Shown here: piece by piece, positions 753-14,047 of the stretch
How positions within the stretch are numbered: position 1 is the first letter of the stretch
Layout of the letters: each line of letters begins with the position of its first letter
Origin: a virus
Direction: 5' to 3' (one strand)
Length of the DNA stretch: 29,172 nucleotides
Virus record (IMG/VR): IMGVR_UViG_3300050136_000046
Span: 1-29,172 of that record
The notes under the pieces: model-generated
Told to the model about the DNA's origin: nothing
The model's input: the letters and a program-made list of their open reading frames with translations, nothing else
Database searches by the model: none
Program-made: the position numbers and the translations under genes

Positions 753-1459
753 TGCCGCGAATGCGCGGAGCTTTTCCTTCCCCGAGACATAGATTGGCGG
801 CTGCGATGCCGCACCGAATCGTTGGCCCTACACCCATCCAGTTTCTCTGGAAGCCGGCGCAACTCTCCATGTGGCTCAATGACGTGGATGGGGATTGCGT
901 GACGGCCGAGGAAGCCTTTAAATGCGCGTGCAACTCGCCAGAGATTTTCATCACCGATGACACGGTCCTAGCATGGGCCACGGCCAACAATGTCTTGAAC
1001 GGTGCCGATCTCATAACCGTGCTGGACATAATGCGGACTGCAGGATTCCAGCAGGGCGGCAGCGTGTACAACGATGGGCCGGTCAGCGTGGTCGATTGGA
1101 CGAATACTACGGCGTTGCAGAATGCCATCGCGCAAGGCCCGGTGAAGATTGGTGTGGCAGCAGACCAACTGCAAAGCGCCGTGCCTGACCCGCCCACGAA
1201 TGGCTGGTTCGCGACAGGCTTTCAGAAAGATAGCAACGAAGATCATTGCGTGAGCCTCTGCGGGTATGGCTCCGTAGGTTGGCTTGCAAATCAACTCGGC
1301 GTTGGCTCTCCAGTGCCGGGAGATACACCAGCCTATGCACTTTTCACTTGGGACTCGATCGGCATCATCGACGTGCCGTCAATGCTCGCCATTACTGGAG
1401 AAGCGTGGCTGCGCTCGCCAGCGACGATTATAGCCGCGGCACCGAGGGGCCAATCGTGA
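752..1459 (+). CDS. Papain-like (C1-type) cysteine peptidase
   Basis: This encodes 235 aa. The ATG at 752 overlaps the preceding TAA and has GGAG about 8 bases upstream; a GTG at 743 is a weaker alternative. Visible papain-fold marks, in order, are: DGDCVTAEEAF around residue 50, resembling the catalytic-Cys helix; ALQNAIAQGPVKIGV near residue 125, like the segment before the active-site His strand; EDHCVSLCGYG near residue 165, matching the His-containing strand (HAVxLVGYG in papain); and ALFTWDSIGI near residue 195, where papains have the NSWG strand. The usual catalytic Asn appears replaced by Thr/Asp around TWDS, so activity is uncertain. No signal peptide is seen. The C-terminal 25 residues are Ala-rich. 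Known phage proteases act on capsid or host proteins, but no substrate can be named here. A GTGA overlap leads to the next gene. Confidence 0.65.
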   Translation: MPRMRGAFPSPRHRLAAAMPHRIVGPTPIQFLWKPAQLSMWLNDVDGDCVTAEEAFKCACNSPEIFITDDTVLAWATANNVLNGADLITVLDIMRTAGFQQGGSVYNDGPVSVVDWTNTTALQNAIAQGPVKIGVAADQLQSAVPDPPTNGWFATGFQKDSNEDHCVSLCGYGSVGWLANQLGVGSPVPGDTPAYALFTWDSIGIIDVPSMLAITGEAWLRSPATIIAAAPRGQS

Positions 1460-1986
1460 ACATCGAACACGAACTGAAAGAGATCAAGAGGATCTCAGAA
1501 GCCAATCTCCGGCAGTCCAACGAAATTTTCACAGTTGTGTCCAGAATTGAACGGAAACTCAACCAGCTTTTGCACCACAATAACGATGCACTTGTTTTAA
1601 CCATTCCAAATCAACAAGGAGAAACGACGATGGGAGCTCCAGCCACACTAGTACTAGGTCAACCCCCGGTTCAGGCAACAGTGCAGGAATCTTTGGGCGG
1701 AGTGAACGAGCCGAACACTGGCCCGATCGCATACGCCTCGGACAATCCGGCCGTTGCATCAGTGGATCCCGTTGCAGGACTTGTCACATCGGTATCAGCG
1801 GGAACGTGCAACATCAGTGCAACGGACAGCACGAACGTACCGGCGCTGTCGGACTCGGTTGCAGTTACGGTAGTGGCATCCGGCCCGCCGCCTCCGCAAC
1901 AGAACGACACGCTCGTATTGAGCATTCCGAGCCAAACGCAGAGCGCGCGCGGTGTGCAGTACCCCAGCAAGCGTACCCGCTTCTAA
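1456..1986 (+). CDS. Big_2-type immunoglobulin-like protein with coiled-coil N-terminus
   Basis: This encodes 176 aa from GTG 1456, which overlaps the previous TGA. Residues 1-40 (NIEHELKEIKRISEAN and on) are a charged helix or coiled coil. Residues 60-135 are a bacterial Ig-like group 2 pattern (YASDNPAVASVDPVAGLVTSVSAG, then CNISATDS and VAVTVV). A second strong initiation site exists inside the frame: AAGGAG at about 1617 followed by ATG 1630 (MGAPATLVLG), so a shorter 118-aa product may also be made or may be the only one. The motif NDALVLTIPNQ (about residue 45) recurs as NDTLVLSIPSQ (about residue 153), as if a second Ig unit had started and been cut off by the stop. Big_2 domains in phages usually decorate virions or fibres. 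The role is inferred. Confidence 0.6.
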   Translation: MNIEHELKEIKRISEANLRQSNEIFTVVSRIERKLNQLLHHNNDALVLTIPNQQGETTMGAPATLVLGQPPVQATVQESLGGVNEPNTGPIAYASDNPAVASVDPVAGLVTSVSAGTCNISATDSTNVPALSDSVAVTVVASGPPPPQQNDTLVLSIPSQTQSARGVQYPSKRTRF

Positions 1987-2956: not shown

Positions 2957-3026
2957 GGTTCTGGCTCCTCAAGTCTTGGATGATGGCATCGAGTTCCTGT
3001 GCCTTCACCTTCGCTTGTTGGGTCAT
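2946..3026 (-). CDS. Possible 26-aa coupling ORF
   Basis: This minus-strand ORF reads MTQQAKVKAQELDAIIQDLR and then SQNHDR. Its ATG (3024-3026) overlaps the upstream stop in ATGA, and its stop lies 11 bases inside the next gene. A GAGG about 5 bases upstream of the ATG could serve as ribosome site. The peptide is a single amphipathic helix. It may be a real microprotein or simply a means of passing ribosomes to the 206-aa gene. Codon usage is unremarkable. Confidence 0.45.
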   Translation of the reverse strand: MTQQAKVKAQELDAIIQDLRSQNHDR

Positions 3027-3376
3027 CGGCCAGCCTCGCACTTAGTTAGCGGGTAGAGATAAATCTCATGTACCATCCTGCGCAGTCTGTTATATGGTTC
3101 GCCGTCTTCGTCCGTTGCAGCGTAAACTATTTCATAATTCCACCAACTCAATTTCCCGTTGCGCATTGGGTGGCGCGAACTTATTTTGGCGAACATCTGC
3201 ATATCTTCGCGCGCTCCGGCGTACTTATACAAAACAACCTGTCCCACGCGGAACTTCGCCTTCTTTCTCTGCACGGAAGGTCGGGTCATGGCTGGTTCAC
3301 GCTCATCACTTCCTCCTTTGATCATCCCCATCGTGTTAGGCCGAAAGTTGAATTCCCTATAAGCGATCTTTGGCAT
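3023..3376 (-). CDS. Hypothetical 117-aa protein with small beta-barrel-like core
   Basis: The ATG at 3376 is preceded by a strong GGGGAGGGGA and overlaps the TGA of the preceding tiny ORF (TGATG), so it is preferred over the GTG one codon upstream. Residues 1-40 are polar and basic. Residues 42-110 (KFRVGQVVLYKYAGA, MQMFAKISSR, LSWWNYEIVY, MVHEIYLYPL) look like a small beta-barrel of the kind seen in many phage early proteins, with the pattern 'f.vGq.V...' followed by 'Y.V....' and 'v.E..L.pl'. An internal ATG (MTRPSVQ, near residue 30) is an alternative start. Function unknown. Confidence 0.65.
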   Translation of the reverse strand: MPKIAYREFNFRPNTMGMIKGGSDEREPAMTRPSVQRKKAKFRVGQVVLYKYAGAREDMQMFAKISSRHPMRNGKLSWWNYEIVYAATDEDGEPYNRLRRMVHEIYLYPLTKCEAGR

Positions 3377-3429
3377 CACTCCCCTCCCCCACAGCAGCCC
3401 AGCAAGAACAGCAGCACAAGAGGCTTCAT
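3376..3429 (-). CDS. Micro-lipoprotein ORF 3 (17 aa)
   Basis: This minus-strand ORF reads MKPLVLLFLLGCCGGGE. It has a lysine after the start, an 8-9 residue hydrophobic core and a lipobox-like FLLGC, leaving only about six residues after the first Cys. Its ATG overlaps the methyltransferase stop (ATGA) and its TGA overlaps the ATG of the 117-aa gene (TGATG), so it fits exactly between two genes. Its last codons (GGGGGAGGGGAG) also form the ribosome site of the next gene. By general lipoprotein rules the peptide would be exported and lipidated. It could alternatively be only a translational coupler. It is one of three similar ORFs in this operon. Confidence 0.5.
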   Translation of the reverse strand: MKPLVLLFLLGCCGGGE

Positions 3430-4016
3430 GCGTTCACCAGCCTTTCAGCATAGTCCGCTACGCAGTTTGCTAATTCGATTGGAATAGTTGCAACCATCAG
3501 TTTCCTCTTTGTACTCCACATTTTATCTGCCGGCGCTGCATAAATTCTCTTGCCGTTCGCATCTCTCGCCCGGGACTGCGACATTCCTTTTCTGATATTC
3601 CTTGGTATCAACGGGGGCACGGCAGTTCCCCATAGGTAGAAGGGTCCGCAGTGATGCACCGCATCGCCAACAAATTTCTGCGCTCCTCGCACGTTCTCCA
3701 TAATGTAAGGAATTCCCGCCGCTTCAAGAATTGAGCGTGTGTGATTGAATAGCCTGATTCCCATCTCAGGATATTTTGGGTTGGGATGAAAGTGCGGCAT
3801 GTCGTGGACAGAAAATTCCTCGCACGGACTAGAAGCGCAAGCGAAATCGAACTCGGCGACGAAACGTGGCTTTATATCCAGCACGTCAAACTGGTTAAAA
3901 TGGCACCCACTGGGAGCGGGTGATTCCACTAAGTCCACGCCCAGAACTTCCCATCCCCGGGACGCGAAAGCGCGACTCCAACCCCACCGTCCGCAGAATA
4001 AATCTAGCACTCTCAC
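3426..4016 (-). CDS. DNA cytosine-C5 methyltransferase-like protein
   Basis: This encodes 196 aa from GTG 4016, chosen because AGGAGG lies 9 bases upstream and the codon forms a GTGA overlap with the preceding tiny ORF; an ATG 12 codons upstream has no ribosome site. The motifs fit an SAM-dependent C5-cytosine methyltransferase: motif I VLDLFCGRWGWS at residues 3-14 followed by VLGVDL; a motif IV-like SSPCEEFS with Cys at residue 65; and motif VI ENVRG at residues 107-111. A C-terminal IPIELANCVADY resembles the closing helix region. At 196 aa it is much shorter than typical Dcm enzymes and the target-recognition region is minimal. Motif IV has SSPC where PPC is usual. It may modify phage DNA against restriction; activity is not certain. 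Confidence 0.75.
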   Translation of the reverse strand: MRVLDLFCGRWGWSRAFASRGWEVLGVDLVESPAPSGCHFNQFDVLDIKPRFVAEFDFACASSPCEEFSVHDMPHFHPNPKYPEMGIRLFNHTRSILEAAGIPYIMENVRGAQKFVGDAVHHCGPFYLWGTAVPPLIPRNIRKGMSQSRARDANGKRIYAAPADKMWSTKRKLMVATIPIELANCVADYAERLVNA

Positions 4017-4102
4017 TTCCACTTCCCTCCTAAGAAATACGCCAGCCCGCATCCCGCAATCGACAGCGCCAGCACCGCGAGAGTTAGTTTTAGGAGCTTC
4101 AT
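4013..4102 (-). CDS. Micro-lipoprotein ORF 2 (29 aa)
   Basis: The ATG at 4102 overlaps the nuclease stop (ATGA) and has a strong GGAGGGG 7-8 bases upstream. The peptide begins MKLLKLTLAVLALSIAGC and continues GLAYFLGGKWK. It has a basic n-region, a hydrophobic core and a lipobox LSIAGC with the Cys at residue 18, then only 11 residues including a second short hydrophobic patch and a basic end. Its stop overlaps the methyltransferase GTG. Bases encoding SIAGCG are nearly the same as in the 18-aa ORF at 4659-4715, so the two are probably related by duplication. An exported, lipidated peptide is the literal reading; function unknown. Confidence 0.55.
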   Translation of the reverse strand: MKLLKLTLAVLALSIAGCGLAYFLGGKWK

Positions 4103-4662
4103 GGCTGCACCCCTCCAGCTAGTTCAAAGGCTTCTGATTGTGTATTTTCGGATTCGTAAAACTTTCTGTTTACGATTGCGAAGCGGAGATAATGAACTTC
4201 GGATGGGTAATCTACCTTCTCGCGTCTCGGAGCTTCAACTTCGACATGAATTCGCCGCCCTTGAACATAAAGCAGGCCGTGATCTGGCGCGTGTTTCAGG
4301 ATGTCTTCGCCAGCAATTACTTCCGCAGACTCACACATGAAATACCGAAAGTCGCCCATACGCTCAATCGTCTCCACTAGCCAGCCGTTCGCCTGAGCTT
4401 CTTTAGCATAAATGCGTCTTCCTGAATAAGTAAAATGGCTTTGGGGTGGACGATAGCGAACGCACTTTTTCTTGTCGGCGAGGAAATCTCCGCGCGAAGT
4501 CTTGCATTCCACGACAATGCTGCCGTAAAACTTCCCACGGCTAGTCCAGCCAATCGCGTCGGGAATTTCGCAGCAAGAAGCGTTCCCCGAATATGCCGGG
4601 TTACAGCGCATCGTCCCTCTCAGCCAGCGCAACGCTCTACTACATAATTCATCGTGTGTCAT
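4099..4662 (-). CDS. PD-(D/E)XK nuclease-like protein
   Basis: This encodes 187 aa. The ATG at 4662 overlaps the preceding tiny ORF in ATGA and is preferred over an open upstream extension that overlaps two other genes. Residues 1-30 (MTHDELCSRALRWLRGTMRC) form an N-terminal helix region. The nuclease core is visible as IPDAIGW (Asp35) and then GSIVVECKTSRGDF (Glu52-x-Lys54) followed by LADKKK. The pattern 'ECKTSR.DFL.DKK' is familiar from small phage and bacterial PD-(D/E)XK proteins of the MmcB/restriction-like class. The C-terminal half (RRIYAKEAQANGW, GLLYVQGRRIHVEV) keeps the beta strands expected around the active site. It lies one micro-ORF away from the methyltransferase, so it may act with it or in DNA processing. 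No recognition domain is evident. Confidence 0.7.
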   Translation of the reverse strand: MTHDELCSRALRWLRGTMRCNPAYSGNASCCEIPDAIGWTSRGKFYGSIVVECKTSRGDFLADKKKCVRYRPPQSHFTYSGRRIYAKEAQANGWLVETIERMGDFRYFMCESAEVIAGEDILKHAPDHGLLYVQGRRIHVEVEAPRREKVDYPSEVHYLRFAIVNRKFYESENTQSEAFELAGGVQP

Positions 4663-4715
4663 TGGCCACATCCCGCAATCGAGACCGCGAGCAGAACGAC
4701 GAGTAGAGATTTCAT
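4659..4715 (-). CDS. Micro-lipoprotein ORF 1 (18 aa)
   Basis: The minus strand reads MKSLLVVLLAVSIAGCGQ and stops. This is a complete lipoprotein signal peptide (Lys, hydrophobic core, lipobox VSIAGC) followed by just Gly-Gln. The ATG overlaps the zinc-ribbon stop (ATGA) with GAGG 7 bases upstream, and the TGA overlaps the ATG of the nuclease (ATGA). If processed normally the mature product would be a three-residue lipopeptide. Related by sequence to the 29-aa ORF at 4013-4102. Confidence 0.55.
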   Translation of the reverse strand: MKSLLVVLLAVSIAGCGQ

Positions 4716-4861
4716 GGGCGACCTCGGTGCTCACCATGAGTTGTGCGGTGCGCGTGGCACTTGCAGCATTCTTCGATGACCTCGCCACTGCGAAGAACCT
4801 GCATGAACGGGCCGCGAAACAGATGCCAACAATGCAAACACTTTTCTGCGACTTCACTCAT
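4712..4861 (-). CDS. Small zinc-ribbon protein (49 aa)
   Basis: The ATG at 4861 is preceded by an excellent GGAGGAGAA ribosome site. The product begins MSEVAEKCLHCWHLF and contains two C-x2-C knuckles: Cys8/Cys11 and Cys32/Cys35, the second as ECCKC, followed by several His residues. This four-Cys spacing fits a zinc ribbon that could bind nucleic acid or a host protein. It lies 22 bases downstream of the first gene of the operon and overlaps the 18-aa lipoprotein ORF by 4 bases. The competing longer frame over this stretch (the upstream extension of the nuclease) has no ribosome site, so this reading is preferred. Confidence 0.65.
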   Translation of the reverse strand: MSEVAEKCLHCWHLFRGPFMQVLRSGEVIEECCKCHAHRTTHGEHRGRP

Positions 4862-4883: not shown

Positions 4884-5138
4884 TCAACTGCCCTTCTTTT
4901 TGTGCTCCTGCGGCTCGCTCGGCACTTCTCCGCCCTTATACTCCACGCGGTCCTGATCTGGGTATTCGCCTAGGTCGTCTTCATCCACCGGAATCAGGCT
5001 TGCCAGCTTTTTTCTGCACCAGAGTTCCAGGCGGAATCTGTGATAAGGGTCAAGAGTGCAACCTACGATAGCCAAGCAGCCGCAAATCACAGCCAGTGTT
5101 CCTAGGTAGATGAGTACTTCATGCCAGAAAGGATTCAT
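4884..5138 (-). CDS. Small single-pass membrane protein, first gene of minus operon
   Basis: This encodes 84 aa. Residues 1-8 (MNPFWHEV) are followed by a hydrophobic segment LIYLGTLAVICGCLAIVGC (residues 9-27), then a polar, acidic tail (DEDDLGEYPDQD) ending in a basic EHKKKGS. It is probably one transmembrane helix with a soluble C-terminal part. A lipobox-like AIVGC is present, but the acidic/aromatic N-terminus is not signal-peptide-like. The ATG at 5138 has no Shine-Dalgarno and sits only 6 bases after the predicted -10, which suggests leaderless translation. As the promoter-proximal gene of the operon it is probably expressed early. Confidence 0.7.
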   Translation of the reverse strand: MNPFWHEVLIYLGTLAVICGCLAIVGCTLDPYHRFRLELWCRKKLASLIPVDEDDLGEYPDQDRVEYKGGEVPSEPQEHKKKGS

Positions 5139-6098: not shown

Positions 6099-6896
6099 AT
6101 GACCGAAGCGACGAAAGCACCCGAAGTTCTGGAAGGGTTTGCAGTGGTCAACAACAAGCCGATCGAGGAAGGCGGGCTGACCCTGCATCACCCGAATCCC
6201 TATGACAAGGTGTCCATCACTCCGATGGAGCTTTTGCAGATTGCGGTCAACAAGGACGCCGACATTGGCAAGCTCGAAGCCCTGATGAACCTGCAACTCA
6301 AGTGGGAAGCAAACGAGGCGCGCAAGGCATTCGTTGAAGCCATGAACGCGTTCAAGAAGAATCCCCCCGAGATTATAAAAAACAAGCTGGTGGCCTACAA
6401 GGATGTGTCCTACAAACACGCCACACTCGACCAGGTGTGCGACAAGATTACCGAGAGCCTCAGTACCCACGGAATTTCCCACCGTTGGAGAATTGAGCAG
6501 TCCGATGGTCTCATACGCGTGACTTGCATCTTGACGCACGATAAGGGGCACAGCGAGGAAACCACGCTCTCCGGTGCGCCGGACAACACGGGCAGCAAAA
6601 ATGCGATTCAAGCCATCAGTTCGACCGTGACTTACCTTGAGCGGTACACGCTCTTGGCGGCTACGGGCCTCGCGGCAGCCAACGGAGACAACGACGGCCA
6701 GGGCGCTCCGAAGTGGGAGAAGCTCCAGGAATACCTAGACTCGATGGTCACAGCTCCTAACATCAAGGTATTGGACGACACCTTCAAGGCCGGGTACAAA
6801 GAGGCGGTAGCCCTCAAGAACACCCAGGCCATGCTCGCTCTGATCACGGCCAAGGACGCGCGCAAGGCCATCCTGCAGAAGGAAGAAACGGTATGA
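6099..6896 (+). CDS. erf: ERF-family single-strand annealing protein
   Basis: This encodes 265 aa; the ATG at 6099 follows AGGAGAGTGAT. Residues 60-205 contain the ERF family body: EARKAFVEAMNAFKKNPPEI, then VSYKHATLDQVCDKITESLS, HGISHRWRIEQSDG, and ITCxLTH-like LIRVTCILTHDKGHSEET, followed by GSKNAIQAISSTVTYLERYT and LLAATGLA. ERF proteins pair complementary single strands during phage recombination and genome circularisation. The C-terminal 60 residues are a helical tail of the type that binds partner proteins in this family. An exonuclease of the YqaJ type follows after one HNH gene, giving the usual annealase/exonuclease pair. An ATGA overlap joins it to that HNH gene. Confidence 0.88.
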   Translation: MTEATKAPEVLEGFAVVNNKPIEEGGLTLHHPNPYDKVSITPMELLQIAVNKDADIGKLEALMNLQLKWEANEARKAFVEAMNAFKKNPPEIIKNKLVAYKDVSYKHATLDQVCDKITESLSTHGISHRWRIEQSDGLIRVTCILTHDKGHSEETTLSGAPDNTGSKNAIQAISSTVTYLERYTLLAATGLAAANGDNDGQGAPKWEKLQEYLDSMVTAPNIKVLDDTFKAGYKEAVALKNTQAMLALITAKDARKAILQKEETV

Positions 6897-7303
6897 AAAT
6901 ATCCGAGGAAAAAAGAGAACAACTGCGCGAGAACGCCAGAGCGCATTATTGGAGAAACAAAACCAAAATGAGAGCGAATGGCGCAGCCCACTATTGGAAG
7001 AACCGCGACCGCATTTTTGTGCGGAAGGCCGAGCAGAAGGTGAAAGTTCTCTCACATTACGGGCCAGATCAAGAGTTGAAGTGCTCTTGGCCTGGTTGCA
7101 TCGTGACAGATGTGGACATGCTAACGCTAGATCACATCATCGAAGTCGGCCGAGCGCGAGTATTTCAGGGTTGCGCTTTTTATTCCTACCTGTCGAAGCG
7201 CAATTTTCCCGATGGGTACCAAACGTTGTGCGCCAACCATCAAATGAAGAAGGAATTTGAACGAAGGCGCAGGGAGAGGAAAAATGTCCCGTCTGCCAAA
7301 TAA
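6893..7303 (+). CDS. HNH-type endonuclease with basic helical N-terminus
   Basis: This encodes 136 aa; the ATG at 6893 overlaps the ERF stop. The N-terminal 45 residues hold a repeated basic element (ARAHYWRNKTK and AAHYWKNRDR), typical of DNA-binding extensions on phage HNH proteins. The core has a zinc-type pair Cys64/Cys69, the catalytic-type LDHI (Asp80-His81), FPDGYQTLCANHQMKK with Cys113, Asn115 and His116, and a very basic end (ERRRRERK). It overlaps the YqaJ exonuclease by 20 bases. Its place inside the recombination gene pair suggests a homing-type insertion that has become part of the operon, or a nuclease used with them. Confidence 0.75.
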   Translation: MKISEEKREQLRENARAHYWRNKTKMRANGAAHYWKNRDRIFVRKAEQKVKVLSHYGPDQELKCSWPGCIVTDVDMLTLDHIIEVGRARVFQGCAFYSYLSKRNFPDGYQTLCANHQMKKEFERRRRERKNVPSAK

Positions 7304-7976
7304 CTTCCTGGACGTTGACCAGCAGACCCCAGAATGGCTCGCCGCGCGAATAGGGTGCGTAACGGCGAGCCGGGTGAAAGATGTGGTGGCAAAGCTCAAG
7401 AACGGCAAGGAAAGCGCTGCACGGACCTCCTATAAGCTAGAACTGCTAACTGAGGCGCTTACCGGCAGGGCCACGGAGCATTACGTCAGTCAGGCGATGG
7501 ACTTCGGCAGTGAGAACGAGCCCCTGGCTCGTACCACCTACGAGATCGCCAAGGGTGTCGAGGTCGAGCGGGTAGGCTTTGTGCTGCATCCCACAATCAA
7601 ACGCGCCGGCGCCTCGCCGGACGGCTTAGTGGGCGAGGATGGCCTGGTCGAAATCAAGGTGCCCAACACGACAACGCACCTGTCTTACGTGATCGGTGAG
7701 GTTGTGCCCGAGGAATACAAGCCGCAGATGATGTGGCAGATGGCTTGTGCCGACCGAGATTGGTGCGACTTCGTAAGCTATGATCCGCGGCTGCCCGAGG
7801 ACTTCGGCCTGTTCGTTGTGCGCTACCAGCGCGACGAAGATGTAATCAAAGAGATGGAGTTTGCGGTGCAGACGTTCATCAACGAACTTAACGAGATGTG
7901 CGGCAAGCTGTTAAAGCACAAGCAGGATGCAGAATTGACTGGCGTGCCACGCGCCGAGATTCCAGAATTTAAGTAG
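7284..7976 (+). CDS. YqaJ/lambda-exonuclease-family recombination nuclease
   Basis: This encodes 230 aa. The ATG at 7284 follows GGGAGAGGAAAA and is preferred over an in-frame ATG at 7257 without a ribosome site. Family motifs are clear: QTPEWLAARIGCVTASR (residues 14-30), FGSENEPLAR (Glu77/Glu79), AGASPDGLV with Asp113, VEIKVPNTTTH with Glu123 and Lys125, and YKPQMMWQMAC with Gln148 and Gln152. These are the metal-binding and catalytic residues of the PD-(D/E)XK exonuclease that chews 5' strands for the annealing protein. Length is normal for the family. It works logically with the ERF protein encoded upstream. Confidence 0.88.
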   Translation: MSRLPNNFLDVDQQTPEWLAARIGCVTASRVKDVVAKLKNGKESAARTSYKLELLTEALTGRATEHYVSQAMDFGSENEPLARTTYEIAKGVEVERVGFVLHPTIKRAGASPDGLVGEDGLVEIKVPNTTTHLSYVIGEVVPEEYKPQMMWQMACADRDWCDFVSYDPRLPEDFGLFVVRYQRDEDVIKEMEFAVQTFINELNEMCGKLLKHKQDAELTGVPRAEIPEFK

Positions 7977-9330: not shown

Positions 9331-9542
9331 CCCTGCCCGTGCTCAAACTTCGCATGCTTCCAGAGGGTTTCTGTATGCGCTGCGGTGCACACGGCTACGT
9401 GGACGACAAGACCTGCCTCTGTGGAGGATGCTTGGGAATTTCTCTCGCGGTCTATCACAAGCGCAAGAGTATGAACTTGGCGGAGCAACTGAAACGGAAC
9501 TTCGATGAGTTTGGCCGACTCTGGAGGAAGAAACTTGTCTGA
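9327..9542 (+). CDS. Zinc-ribbon protein (71 aa)
   Basis: The ATG at 9327 overlaps the preceding stop. It contains C-x2-C at Cys16/Cys19 (FCMRCGAHGY) and a cysteine cluster CLCGGC (Cys30, Cys32, Cys35), giving a four-Cys zinc ribbon. The C-terminal half, with KRKSMNLAEQLKRNFDEFGR, is a basic amphipathic helix. This is the third small Cys-knuckle protein in the early region. A role in DNA or RNA binding is likely but not proven. It ends 8 bases past the start of the VRR-NUC gene. Confidence 0.62.
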   Translation: MTLPVLKLRMLPEGFCMRCGAHGYVDDKTCLCGGCLGISLAVYHKRKSMNLAEQLKRNFDEFGRLWRKKLV

Positions 9543-9852
9543 ACTTAGCGAGAGCGCGATCCAGAAACAGATTCTCGACCTGCTCAAGCGCCGGCGAATC
9601 TTTCACTACCGCAACAATACGGGCGGCGCAAAGCTCAAAGGCCACTACGTGCACTTCGGCAGAATCGGAGCACCCGATGTCATCTGCGTAATAAACGGCA
9701 AATATGTGGGCATCGAAGTCAAGAACACCAAAGGCGAACTCTCGCGCAAGCAGGTGGAATTTCGTGCAGAGCTTGAGAAGGCTGGAGGCATTTATCTTTT
9801 AGTGCGCAGTGCAATGGAACTGGATCAAGAGCTTATCAGGAGGTTTCTATGA
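9535..9852 (+). CDS. VRR-NUC domain nuclease (Holliday-junction-resolvase-like)
   Basis: This encodes 105 aa from TTG 9535, chosen because GGAGGAAGAAAC precedes it; ATG 9505 has no ribosome site. It is a stand-alone VRR-NUC: SESAIQKQILDLLKRR helix, FHYRNNTGGAKL, then the PD-(D/E)XK set GAPDVICV with Asp48, GIEVKNTKGELS with Glu61 and Lys63, RKQVEF with Gln73, and GGIYLLVRS. Members of this family from phages cleave branched DNA. With terminase just downstream, it may clear branches before packaging or resolve recombination intermediates made by ERF/YqaJ. It ends in an ATGA overlap. Confidence 0.85.
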   Translation: MSELSESAIQKQILDLLKRRRIFHYRNNTGGAKLKGHYVHFGRIGAPDVICVINGKYVGIEVKNTKGELSRKQVEFRAELEKAGGIYLLVRSAMELDQELIRRFL

Positions 9853-10070
9853 TTACGTCGCAATGGAATCCGCAACTCTGCGAAGAGACGCTGTTGCTTT
9901 TTGAGCGCCTGCGCAAAAAGAAGGAAGATGAATTCGACGCGCTGATTTGCGAAGCGAGCTGCGGTGGTGCGCGTAAAGTGACCGCCCTCGAACGCAAGCT
10001 GATGAAGCTCTCGCCCCGAACGCGTTACCGCATCCTATTTAATTCGTACAAAAGGAGAAATCGCCGATGA
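9849..10070 (+). CDS. Hypothetical basic protein (73 aa)
   Basis: The ATG at 9849 overlaps the VRR-NUC stop and has AGGAGG upstream. The sequence is helical: CEETLLLFERLRKKKEDEFD, then GGARKVTALERKLMKLSPRT, ending in RYRILFNSYKRRNRR. It has a high content of Lys and Arg, especially at the end. No domain was recognised. It could bind DNA. An ATGA overlap with the next small ORF supports translation. Confidence 0.6.
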   Translation: MITSQWNPQLCEETLLLFERLRKKKEDEFDALICEASCGGARKVTALERKLMKLSPRTRYRILFNSYKRRNRR

Positions 10071-13538: not shown

Positions 13539-14047
13539 AGCGTTTCATAGTGATCTCGGCCTTGGCGGTAATGGCTGCGCTGGGCATCATGCTAGGCGTG
13601 GGTATTCCGCACGGCCATGTCTTGGGGCAAGGGCCAGCTCCGGCAACTGGTGTCGCTGCGATCGGCATGCTGGCGCAGGTGGCAAACATCGCCTCAACGC
13701 CCATCTCTCCCTCAGTTGATCCAGTAATCGTCGCTGCAGGGGGAATGTATCGCGCAGACTGTTACATGATCGAAACCGTTGCGGCCACGACGTCCTCAAC
13801 ACTGCCTGTTTGCAATGTGATTTACACGGACACCGATACGGGCAATAGCCACACGGTCGCGCTCACGGCGACATCGGCGGCCAACGCGGTTGACACGGTC
13901 GGCGCCGGGTCAACAACCGCTCCTTGGGGCGTATTCCATGCGAAAGGCGGCACAACCATTTCATTCTCAACATCGAGCTACGCCAGTTCAGGTGCAACAG
14001 CTATGGCCTATTCAATGCACTTCCGGCTGGAGTATATCGGAAAGTGA
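13520..14047 (+). CDS. Sec-signal-bearing beta-sandwich virion-like protein
   Basis: This encodes 175 aa. The ATG at 13520 follows AAGGGGAAACC. Residues 1-35 are a long signal peptide or anchor (MALKNMKRFIVISALAVMAA then LGIMLGVGIPHGHVLGQ). The rest is Ala/Thr/Ser-rich beta structure: GMYRADCYMIETVAATTSST, LPVCNVIYTDTDTGNSHTVA and SMHFRLEYIG. This 'yr...y.vet..a.tsstlp...i.ytD.dt' pattern also appears at the C-terminus of the 711-aa protein downstream, so the two probably share a fold, perhaps a decoration or fibre module. Export of a virion-type protein is unusual. Confidence 0.62.
   Translation: MALKNMKRFIVISALAVMAALGIMLGVGIPHGHVLGQGPAPATGVAAIGMLAQVANIASTPISPSVDPVIVAAGGMYRADCYMIETVAATTSSTLPVCNVIYTDTDTGNSHTVALTATSAANAVDTVGAGSTTAPWGVFHAKGGTTISFSTSSYASSGATAMAYSMHFRLEYIGK

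Follow-up and report, generated by a model that had tools for sequence, protein, structure and literature searches.

Results and Discussion

An early-type gene block with three micro-ORFs

The window analyzed here, a linear viral contig from IMG/VR, is 29,172 bases long and itself partial. Its minus strand carries an early-type block with, in order, an 84-aa ORF, a 49-aa ORF, ORF1, a nuclease-like gene, ORF2, a DNA methyltransferase gene, ORF3, a 117-aa ORF, and more genes (Table 1). The original prediction had placed three very short minus-strand ORFs between the larger genes, and the sequence and ORF listing contain them with exactly the predicted coordinates and lengths. Leaving out ORF1, ORF2, and ORF3 would open gaps of 49, 82, and 49 nt, respectively, which the micro-ORFs bridge exactly. 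The short start/stop overlaps proposed for both sides of each one could be read directly at all six junctions, where they measure either 4 or 1 nt. ORF1 overlaps both the 49-aa ORF and the nuclease gene by ATGA; ORF2 overlaps the nuclease gene by ATGA and the methyltransferase gene by GTGA; and ORF3 overlaps the methyltransferase gene by ATGA and the 117-aa ORF by TGATG.

Table 1. Positions of the genes, micro-ORFs, and sequence signals in the window (SD, Shine-Dalgarno sequence)
Feature	Position	Strand	Description
84-aa ORF	4884-5138	-	Heads the block
49-aa ORF	4712..4861	-	Precedes ORF1 with an ATGA overlap
SD of ORF1	4721..4725	-	GAGGT, within the end of the 49-aa ORF; -6.6 kcal/mol
ORF1, 18 aa	4659..4715	-	MKSLLVVLLAVSIAGCGQ; predicted lipoprotein signal peptide, Cys16, mature CGQ
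Repeat copy in ORF1, 28 nt	4666..4693	-	
Nuclease, 187 aa	4099..4662	-	PD-(D/E)XK-like; ORF1 on one side, ORF2 on the other; PHROG 631, E 2.9e-24
SD of ORF2	4110..4116	-	GGAGGGG, within the end of the nuclease gene; -9.8 kcal/mol
ORF2, 29 aa	4013..4102	-	MKLLKLTLAVLALSIAGCGLAYFLGGKWK; predicted lipoprotein signal peptide, Cys18, mature part 12 aa
Repeat copy in ORF2, 28 nt	4047..4074	-	Includes TCGATTGCGGGATGCGG = S-I-A-G-C-G
SD of methyltransferase	4025..4031	-	AGGAGGG, within the ORF2 coding sequence; -10.7 kcal/mol
DNA methyltransferase, 196 aa	3426..4016	-	GTG start; ORF2 on one side, ORF3 on the other; PHROG 363, E 6.4e-13
ORF3, 17 aa	3376..3429	-	MKPLVLLFLLGCCGGGE; hydrophobic, lipobox-like, below PROSITE rule length
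SD of 117-aa ORF	3381..3390	-	GGGGGAGGGG, within the ORF3 coding sequence; -11.8 kcal/mol
117-aa ORF	3023..3376	-	3' of ORF3, TGATG overlap
Fourth micro-ORF, 39 aa	5613..5732	+	GTG start, one transmembrane stretch, no lipobox; overlaps a 70-aa ORF upstream (GTGA) and a 121-aa ORF downstream (TGATG)
Fifth micro-ORF, 30 aa	9068..9160	+	MSPLHWLLIIALFGIPFFLILRVLWRKGSK; doubly coupled, one transmembrane stretch, no lipobox

The 187-aa ORF is assigned as a putative nuclease from its motif PDAIGW...ECK, which is conserved among homologues, and the DLFCG, SPC, and ENV motifs are conserved in the methyltransferase alignment. That alignment has an invariant M1 at the methyltransferase start (4016), which is the first residue in 16/16 aligned homologues, and the nuclease start (4662) fits a homologue consensus that opens MTHxELC. 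Because the homologues start at 4662 and 4016, the gaps occupied by ORF1 and ORF2, and the exactness of their fit, do not depend on guessed starts. The 3' junction of ORF3 is less secure, as the 117-aa ORF lacks an independent homologue; its sole homologue sits in the near-identical IMG/VR contig 3300048808_000013. Two longer gene models were rejected since the homologues start at 4662 and 4016: a GTG-start nuclease from 4857, and a methyltransferase from ATG 4052, where the Shine-Dalgarno (SD) sequence is also poor.

The 49-aa ORF had no match in Pfam or PHROGs. The N-terminus of the 84-aa ORF is hydrophobic and contains two GC motifs (AVICGCLAIVGC) but no K/R in residues 1-7; the product is probably membrane-anchored. 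On the plus strand, genes for an ERF-family recombinase and a YqaJ exonuclease lie close together at 6099-7976, and similar DNA occurs in a locus with a homologous methyltransferase gene (L006). The same locus has, within the ORF at 1171-1833 (+), a lipoprotein-like ORF of ordinary length (MKGKKKLAVGILAAVLVVGCSAATF...). At the contig end (28498-29172), the window runs into a repeated protein segment in which PAMRVPAIAQQTGTSQLPGGGVIQRPAMMLPPAPEAPAA occurs twice.

Translation signals and coupling

SD duplex energies at the starts of ORF1, ORF2, and ORF3 are -6.6, -9.8, and -6.9 kcal/mol, against a background in which 16% of all minus-strand ATGs reach -5 kcal/mol and 3.5% reach -7. The prediction also allowed for translational couplers with a coding SD, and such SDs were found at the 3' ends of the micro-ORFs; they are strong in ORF2 and ORF3, while the nuclease SD inside ORF1 is weak (-5.0). 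Fusion of a signal peptide to an enzyme by frameshifting was considered and set aside, with no obvious slippery site visible by eye.

These signals bear on a reading in which the micro-ORFs would be pure translational couplers, a natural "bicistronic design" that carries ribosomes over a gap of 49-82 nt and opens the next SD, the peptide being a by-product that is degraded. Reinitiation is almost abolished at a spacing of about 20 nt in Escherichia coli and Haloferax (PMC10666635), a limit at which gaps of 49-82 nt would uncouple the genes, and the notion of a short ORF serving to deliver ribosomes is accepted (PMC12548453). All six junctions at -4 or -1 nt and the strong SDs of the methyltransferase and the 117-aa ORF within ORF2 and ORF3 fit such a role; the weak nuclease SD supplied by ORF1 fits it poorly. 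Since reinitiation needs overlaps or very short gaps, a gene lying between two coupled genes must start and end with overlaps, and a very small one must house the SD of its successor within its final codons, which explains the tails LGGKWK and GGGE. This accounts neither for the hydrophobic cores nor for the IAGC shared by ORF1 and ORF2. Coupling has no need of a hydrophobic core, and yet ORF1-3 and two more ORFs in the window have one, a degree of hydrophobicity reached by only ~0.5% of the doubly coupled ORFs that random sequence contains. We regard pure coupling as a possibility to be taken seriously, albeit with a probability well short of even. Our preferred reading, to which we give about an even chance, is that these are genuine micro-genes, specific to the lineage, that encode membrane peptides and serve as couplers as well; we prefer it because coupling leaves the cores and the IAGC motifs unexplained.

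Predicted lipoprotein signals and the ORF1/ORF2 repeat

All three micro-ORFs had been proposed to encode lipobox signal peptides. We applied a scripted rule of the PS51257 type, which requires K/R in residues 1-7, a Cys at 15-35, an uncharged h-region, and a final [AGS]C. ORF1 (Cys16) and ORF2 (Cys18) satisfy this rule and are probably lipidated, judging from their sequences, but ORF3 falls short of a standard lipobox signal peptide, with its Cys at 12/13 and a Lys among the 10 residues preceding it. The predicted mature peptides have 3 residues in ORF1 and 12 in ORF2, in line with the proposed range of about 3-12.

The two copies of the ORF1/ORF2 repeat are identical at 24/28 nt (86%), lie in the same codon register, differ in amino acids only by L/V, and span the end of the hydrophobic core together with S-I-A-G-C-G. 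This pattern fits duplication with the peptide kept, and ORF1 and ORF2 are probably paralogues. When both peptides were recoded with the window's codon usage, an equally long DNA match arose in 2-3% of trials (P ~0.02-0.03), so a duplication, though likely, falls short of certainty; the likeness of the DNA beyond what the peptides force is only modest.

The repeat also invites comparison with the MIRUs of mycobacteria, short mobile ORF-bearing units that enter at start codons with -4 nt spacing and do little harm (PMC12548453). Removing each unit here would restore a legal overlap. However, only 28 of 57-90 nt are common to ORF1 and ORF2, and ORF3 is unrelated; no exact copy of the repeat's core 17-mer exists elsewhere in the window, nor are its first 14 bases present in the fetched loci outside this phage. 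MIRU-like insertion seems very unlikely to us.

We give still less weight to a role as communication peptides, in which cleavage by LspA would free the hydrophobic ...LAVSIAG and ...LALSIAG. Enterococcal pheromones are the final residues of lipoprotein signal peptides, for example ...LFSLVLAGC (PMC7117660), and ORF1 and ORF2 encode little beyond a signal peptide. But any lipoprotein signal peptide would look alike in this respect, and the known cases come from Gram-positive hosts, whereas the host here is probably diderm. The pointer to the host comes from nuclease relatives in cellular genomes, found in several Acidobacteriota MAGs and also in Proteobacteria and others, with 44-51% over the first ~70 residues in most of the Acidobacteriota MAGs; this hints weakly at a diderm soil bacterium, in which the Lgt/LspA pathway is expected.

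Doubly coupled hydrophobic micro-ORFs exceed chance

The count took in every ORF of 12-45 aa that has an 11-residue stretch averaging at least 2.4 on the Kyte-Doolittle scale and, at each of its two ends, shares 4 or 1 nt with an ORF of 45 aa or more on the same strand. The window holds five of them, namely ORF1-3 and two plus-strand transmembrane ones (Table 1), against 0.013 expected per window in first-order Markov sequences. Related phage loci yielded eight matches, seven of them distinct, in 753 kb, or 0.27 per window. Poisson probabilities for the window's five are ~1e-5 relative to these relatives and 3e-12 relative to the Markov sequences, values that are indicative because the hydrophobicity cut-off was set after ORF1-3 had been seen. 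The excess in the relatives themselves is less affected by that choice (seven distinct examples versus ~0.34 expected, P ~8e-8). Under the rule we applied, tiny hydrophobic ORFs did not adjoin nuclease or methyltransferase genes preferentially to a significant degree (Fisher P 0.064).

The idea of a set of three is correct insofar as three real, coupled, signal-peptide-like ORFs are present, but it draws the group too narrowly: the window contains two further tiny membrane ORFs, both lacking a lipobox, that are coupled at either end as well, and ORF1 and ORF2 look like duplicates. The counts also speak to whether the micro-ORFs could be chance open frames within short intergenic gaps. They are very short and have no independent conservation, as chance frames would; nevertheless, the count statistics, the SDs at their starts, and the paralogous ORF1/ORF2 pair all argue against this, and we consider it most improbable.

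Conservation and relatives

Outside the window, the trio was found only in contig 3300048808_000013, where it is identical over the locus. Around the locus, up to about 9.4 kb, that contig and the window do not differ at all. Because the other record was deposited separately and diverges elsewhere, its unchanged ORF1-3 make an assembly error unlikely. The differences come in patches, at about 9450-10061 and, smaller, at about 13978-14041, with ~100 of them within 9450-9945, over and around a VRR-NUC-like gene; this looks like local gene exchange.

Scans of IMG/VR with the methyltransferase and the nuclease returned many homologues and no micro-lipoprotein. The original prediction had proposed, as a check, to look for the same micro-ORFs between homologous genes of related contigs, and the IMG/VR homologues have none. 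This comparison is blunted by the fact that the flanking gene pairs are not preserved in any distant relative; the homologues in other IMG/VR contigs have unrelated neighbor genes. In all, 93 of 135 homologue copies (near-duplicate contigs included) overlap some upstream ORF by 4 or 1 nt, and these upstream ORFs range from a few to >500 aa, some being trivially short. Tiny transmembrane ORFs lie directly 5' of one methyltransferase homologue (L009) and of a nuclease homologue (L046/L047), while the relatives have no both-ends-coupled lipobox micro-ORF with a mature part of at most 12 aa. The relatives thus hold unrelated coupled genes at these places, which marks coupled junctions as sites of fast small-gene turnover. 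That the genes stay coupled while the peptide is not kept also accords with pure coupling.

The DNA pattern for MK...SIAGCG occurs in tiny lipobox ORFs of IMG/VR in this phage only; its other matches were dismissed as chance or as an ordinary 208-aa lipoprotein (L091). Queries with the terminase, the 117-aa ORF, and the 84-aa ORF each returned the near-identical contig only. Among annotated phages, there was no match to the ORF2 protein (tblastn) or to the locus DNA; ORF2 had no match in PHROGs, ORF1 and ORF3 being below searchable length, and the methyltransferase alignment had no matches in GTDB genomes. The lipobox version so appears confined to this lineage.

Proposed mechanism

Based on these features, we propose how the micro-genes might work. 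Ribosomes ending the upstream gene would restart at the micro-ORF through the ATGA overlap and the SD in the upstream gene, translate 17-29 codons, and then restart on the next gene via the SD within the micro-ORF's last codons. The product would be a tiny membrane peptide. We infer that ORF1 and ORF2 would be recognized by the host lipoprotein pathway, Lgt and then LspA, leaving lipidated CGQ, a lipidated 12-residue peptide, and the released signal peptides, and that ORF3 would more likely remain a very short membrane-inserted peptide. In this scheme, the micro-ORFs would exemplify something that recurs in soil phages, namely tiny membrane ORFs lodged between early genes. Their likeliest target would be the host envelope, where they would work in parallel with the early DNA enzymes, for example by altering the entry of a second phage. 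Exclusion, or any other envelope effect, is a guess by analogy with other phage lipoproteins.

The preferred reading of membrane peptides that double as couplers draws on the exact fit at six junctions, the SD at each start, the excess of such ORFs in the window and in relatives, the lipobox signals of ORF1 and ORF2, and their shared repeat. Counting against it, the tail residues may be dictated by the SD, the trio has no independent conservation, annotated phages gave no match to the ORF2 protein or the locus DNA, the extra DNA likeness of ORF1 and ORF2 is modest, and ORF3 fails the lipobox rule. The stronger version, in which the phage releases near-minimal lipopeptides (lipidated CGQ and the 12-residue peptide) and production of each enzyme comes with that of a membrane-acting lipopeptide, we consider rather unlikely. 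If true, we would know of no smaller natural lipoprotein genes, and lipidated peptides of 3-12 residues would probe the minimum needs of the lipoprotein pathway. More generally, if the micro-ORFs are translated, a gap of 50-80 nt in a phage operon can contain a full gene for a membrane peptide and, with it, the ribosome-binding site of the gene that follows. ORFs of such length are usually omitted from annotation, and the combination of coupling at both ends, a length of at most 45 aa, and hydrophobicity would then offer a simple class for finding hidden phage micro-genes.

Comparison with known systems

Four kinds of known system come close: small phage membrane proteins, phage lipoproteins, short ORFs that deliver ribosomes, and coupled inserts of the MIRU type. 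Those small membrane proteins whose genes are coupled small ORFs of early operons are, like ORF1-3, tiny, hydrophobic, strand-consistent, and coupled to their neighbors. The seven distinct examples in the relatives are single transmembrane peptides, from which ORF1 and ORF2 differ by a lipobox and a mature part of at most 12 aa.

Llp of phage T5, Ltp of Streptococcus phage TP-J34, and the Rz1 spanins are phage-encoded, have a lipobox, and are located in the envelope, as proposed here. In Llp and the Rz1 spanins the mature part is much longer and the gene context is different, an Rz1 gene being nested in or adjacent to an Rz gene of a lysis cassette. Ltp is, like Llp, an exclusion lipoprotein, also with a much longer mature part and another gene context (PMC3952083). 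ORF1-3 differ from all of these in a mature part of 3-12 aa and in genes lying beside a nuclease and a methyltransferase, neighbors that, with such mature parts, set them apart from Rz1 spanins; no lysis gene was noticed in the neighborhood of ORF1-3. Neither do they join the Llp/Ltp type, which shows sequence homology and a structured mature domain: ORF2, the only one long enough to search, is unmatched in PHROGs and in annotated phages by tblastn, and the mature parts are below domain size. MIRUs are likewise short ORF-bearing units with -4 nt coupling, but they are repetitive elements, whereas here just a 28-nt stretch is common to two of the three units, and an interspersed unit in many copies was found neither in the window nor in the fetched loci.

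Our limited search of the open-access literature brought up no description of doubly coupled lipobox micro-genes with 18-29 codons. Their closest counterparts in arrangement are ribosome-delivering short ORFs and the synthetic bicistronic design, which likewise overlap the next start and place the downstream SD inside a coding sequence; ORF1-3 have both the stop/start overlap with the downstream gene and its SD within the short ORF, weakly in ORF1. In both of these, the peptide sequence is irrelevant, whereas the hydrophobicity and lipobox of ORF1-3 are non-random.
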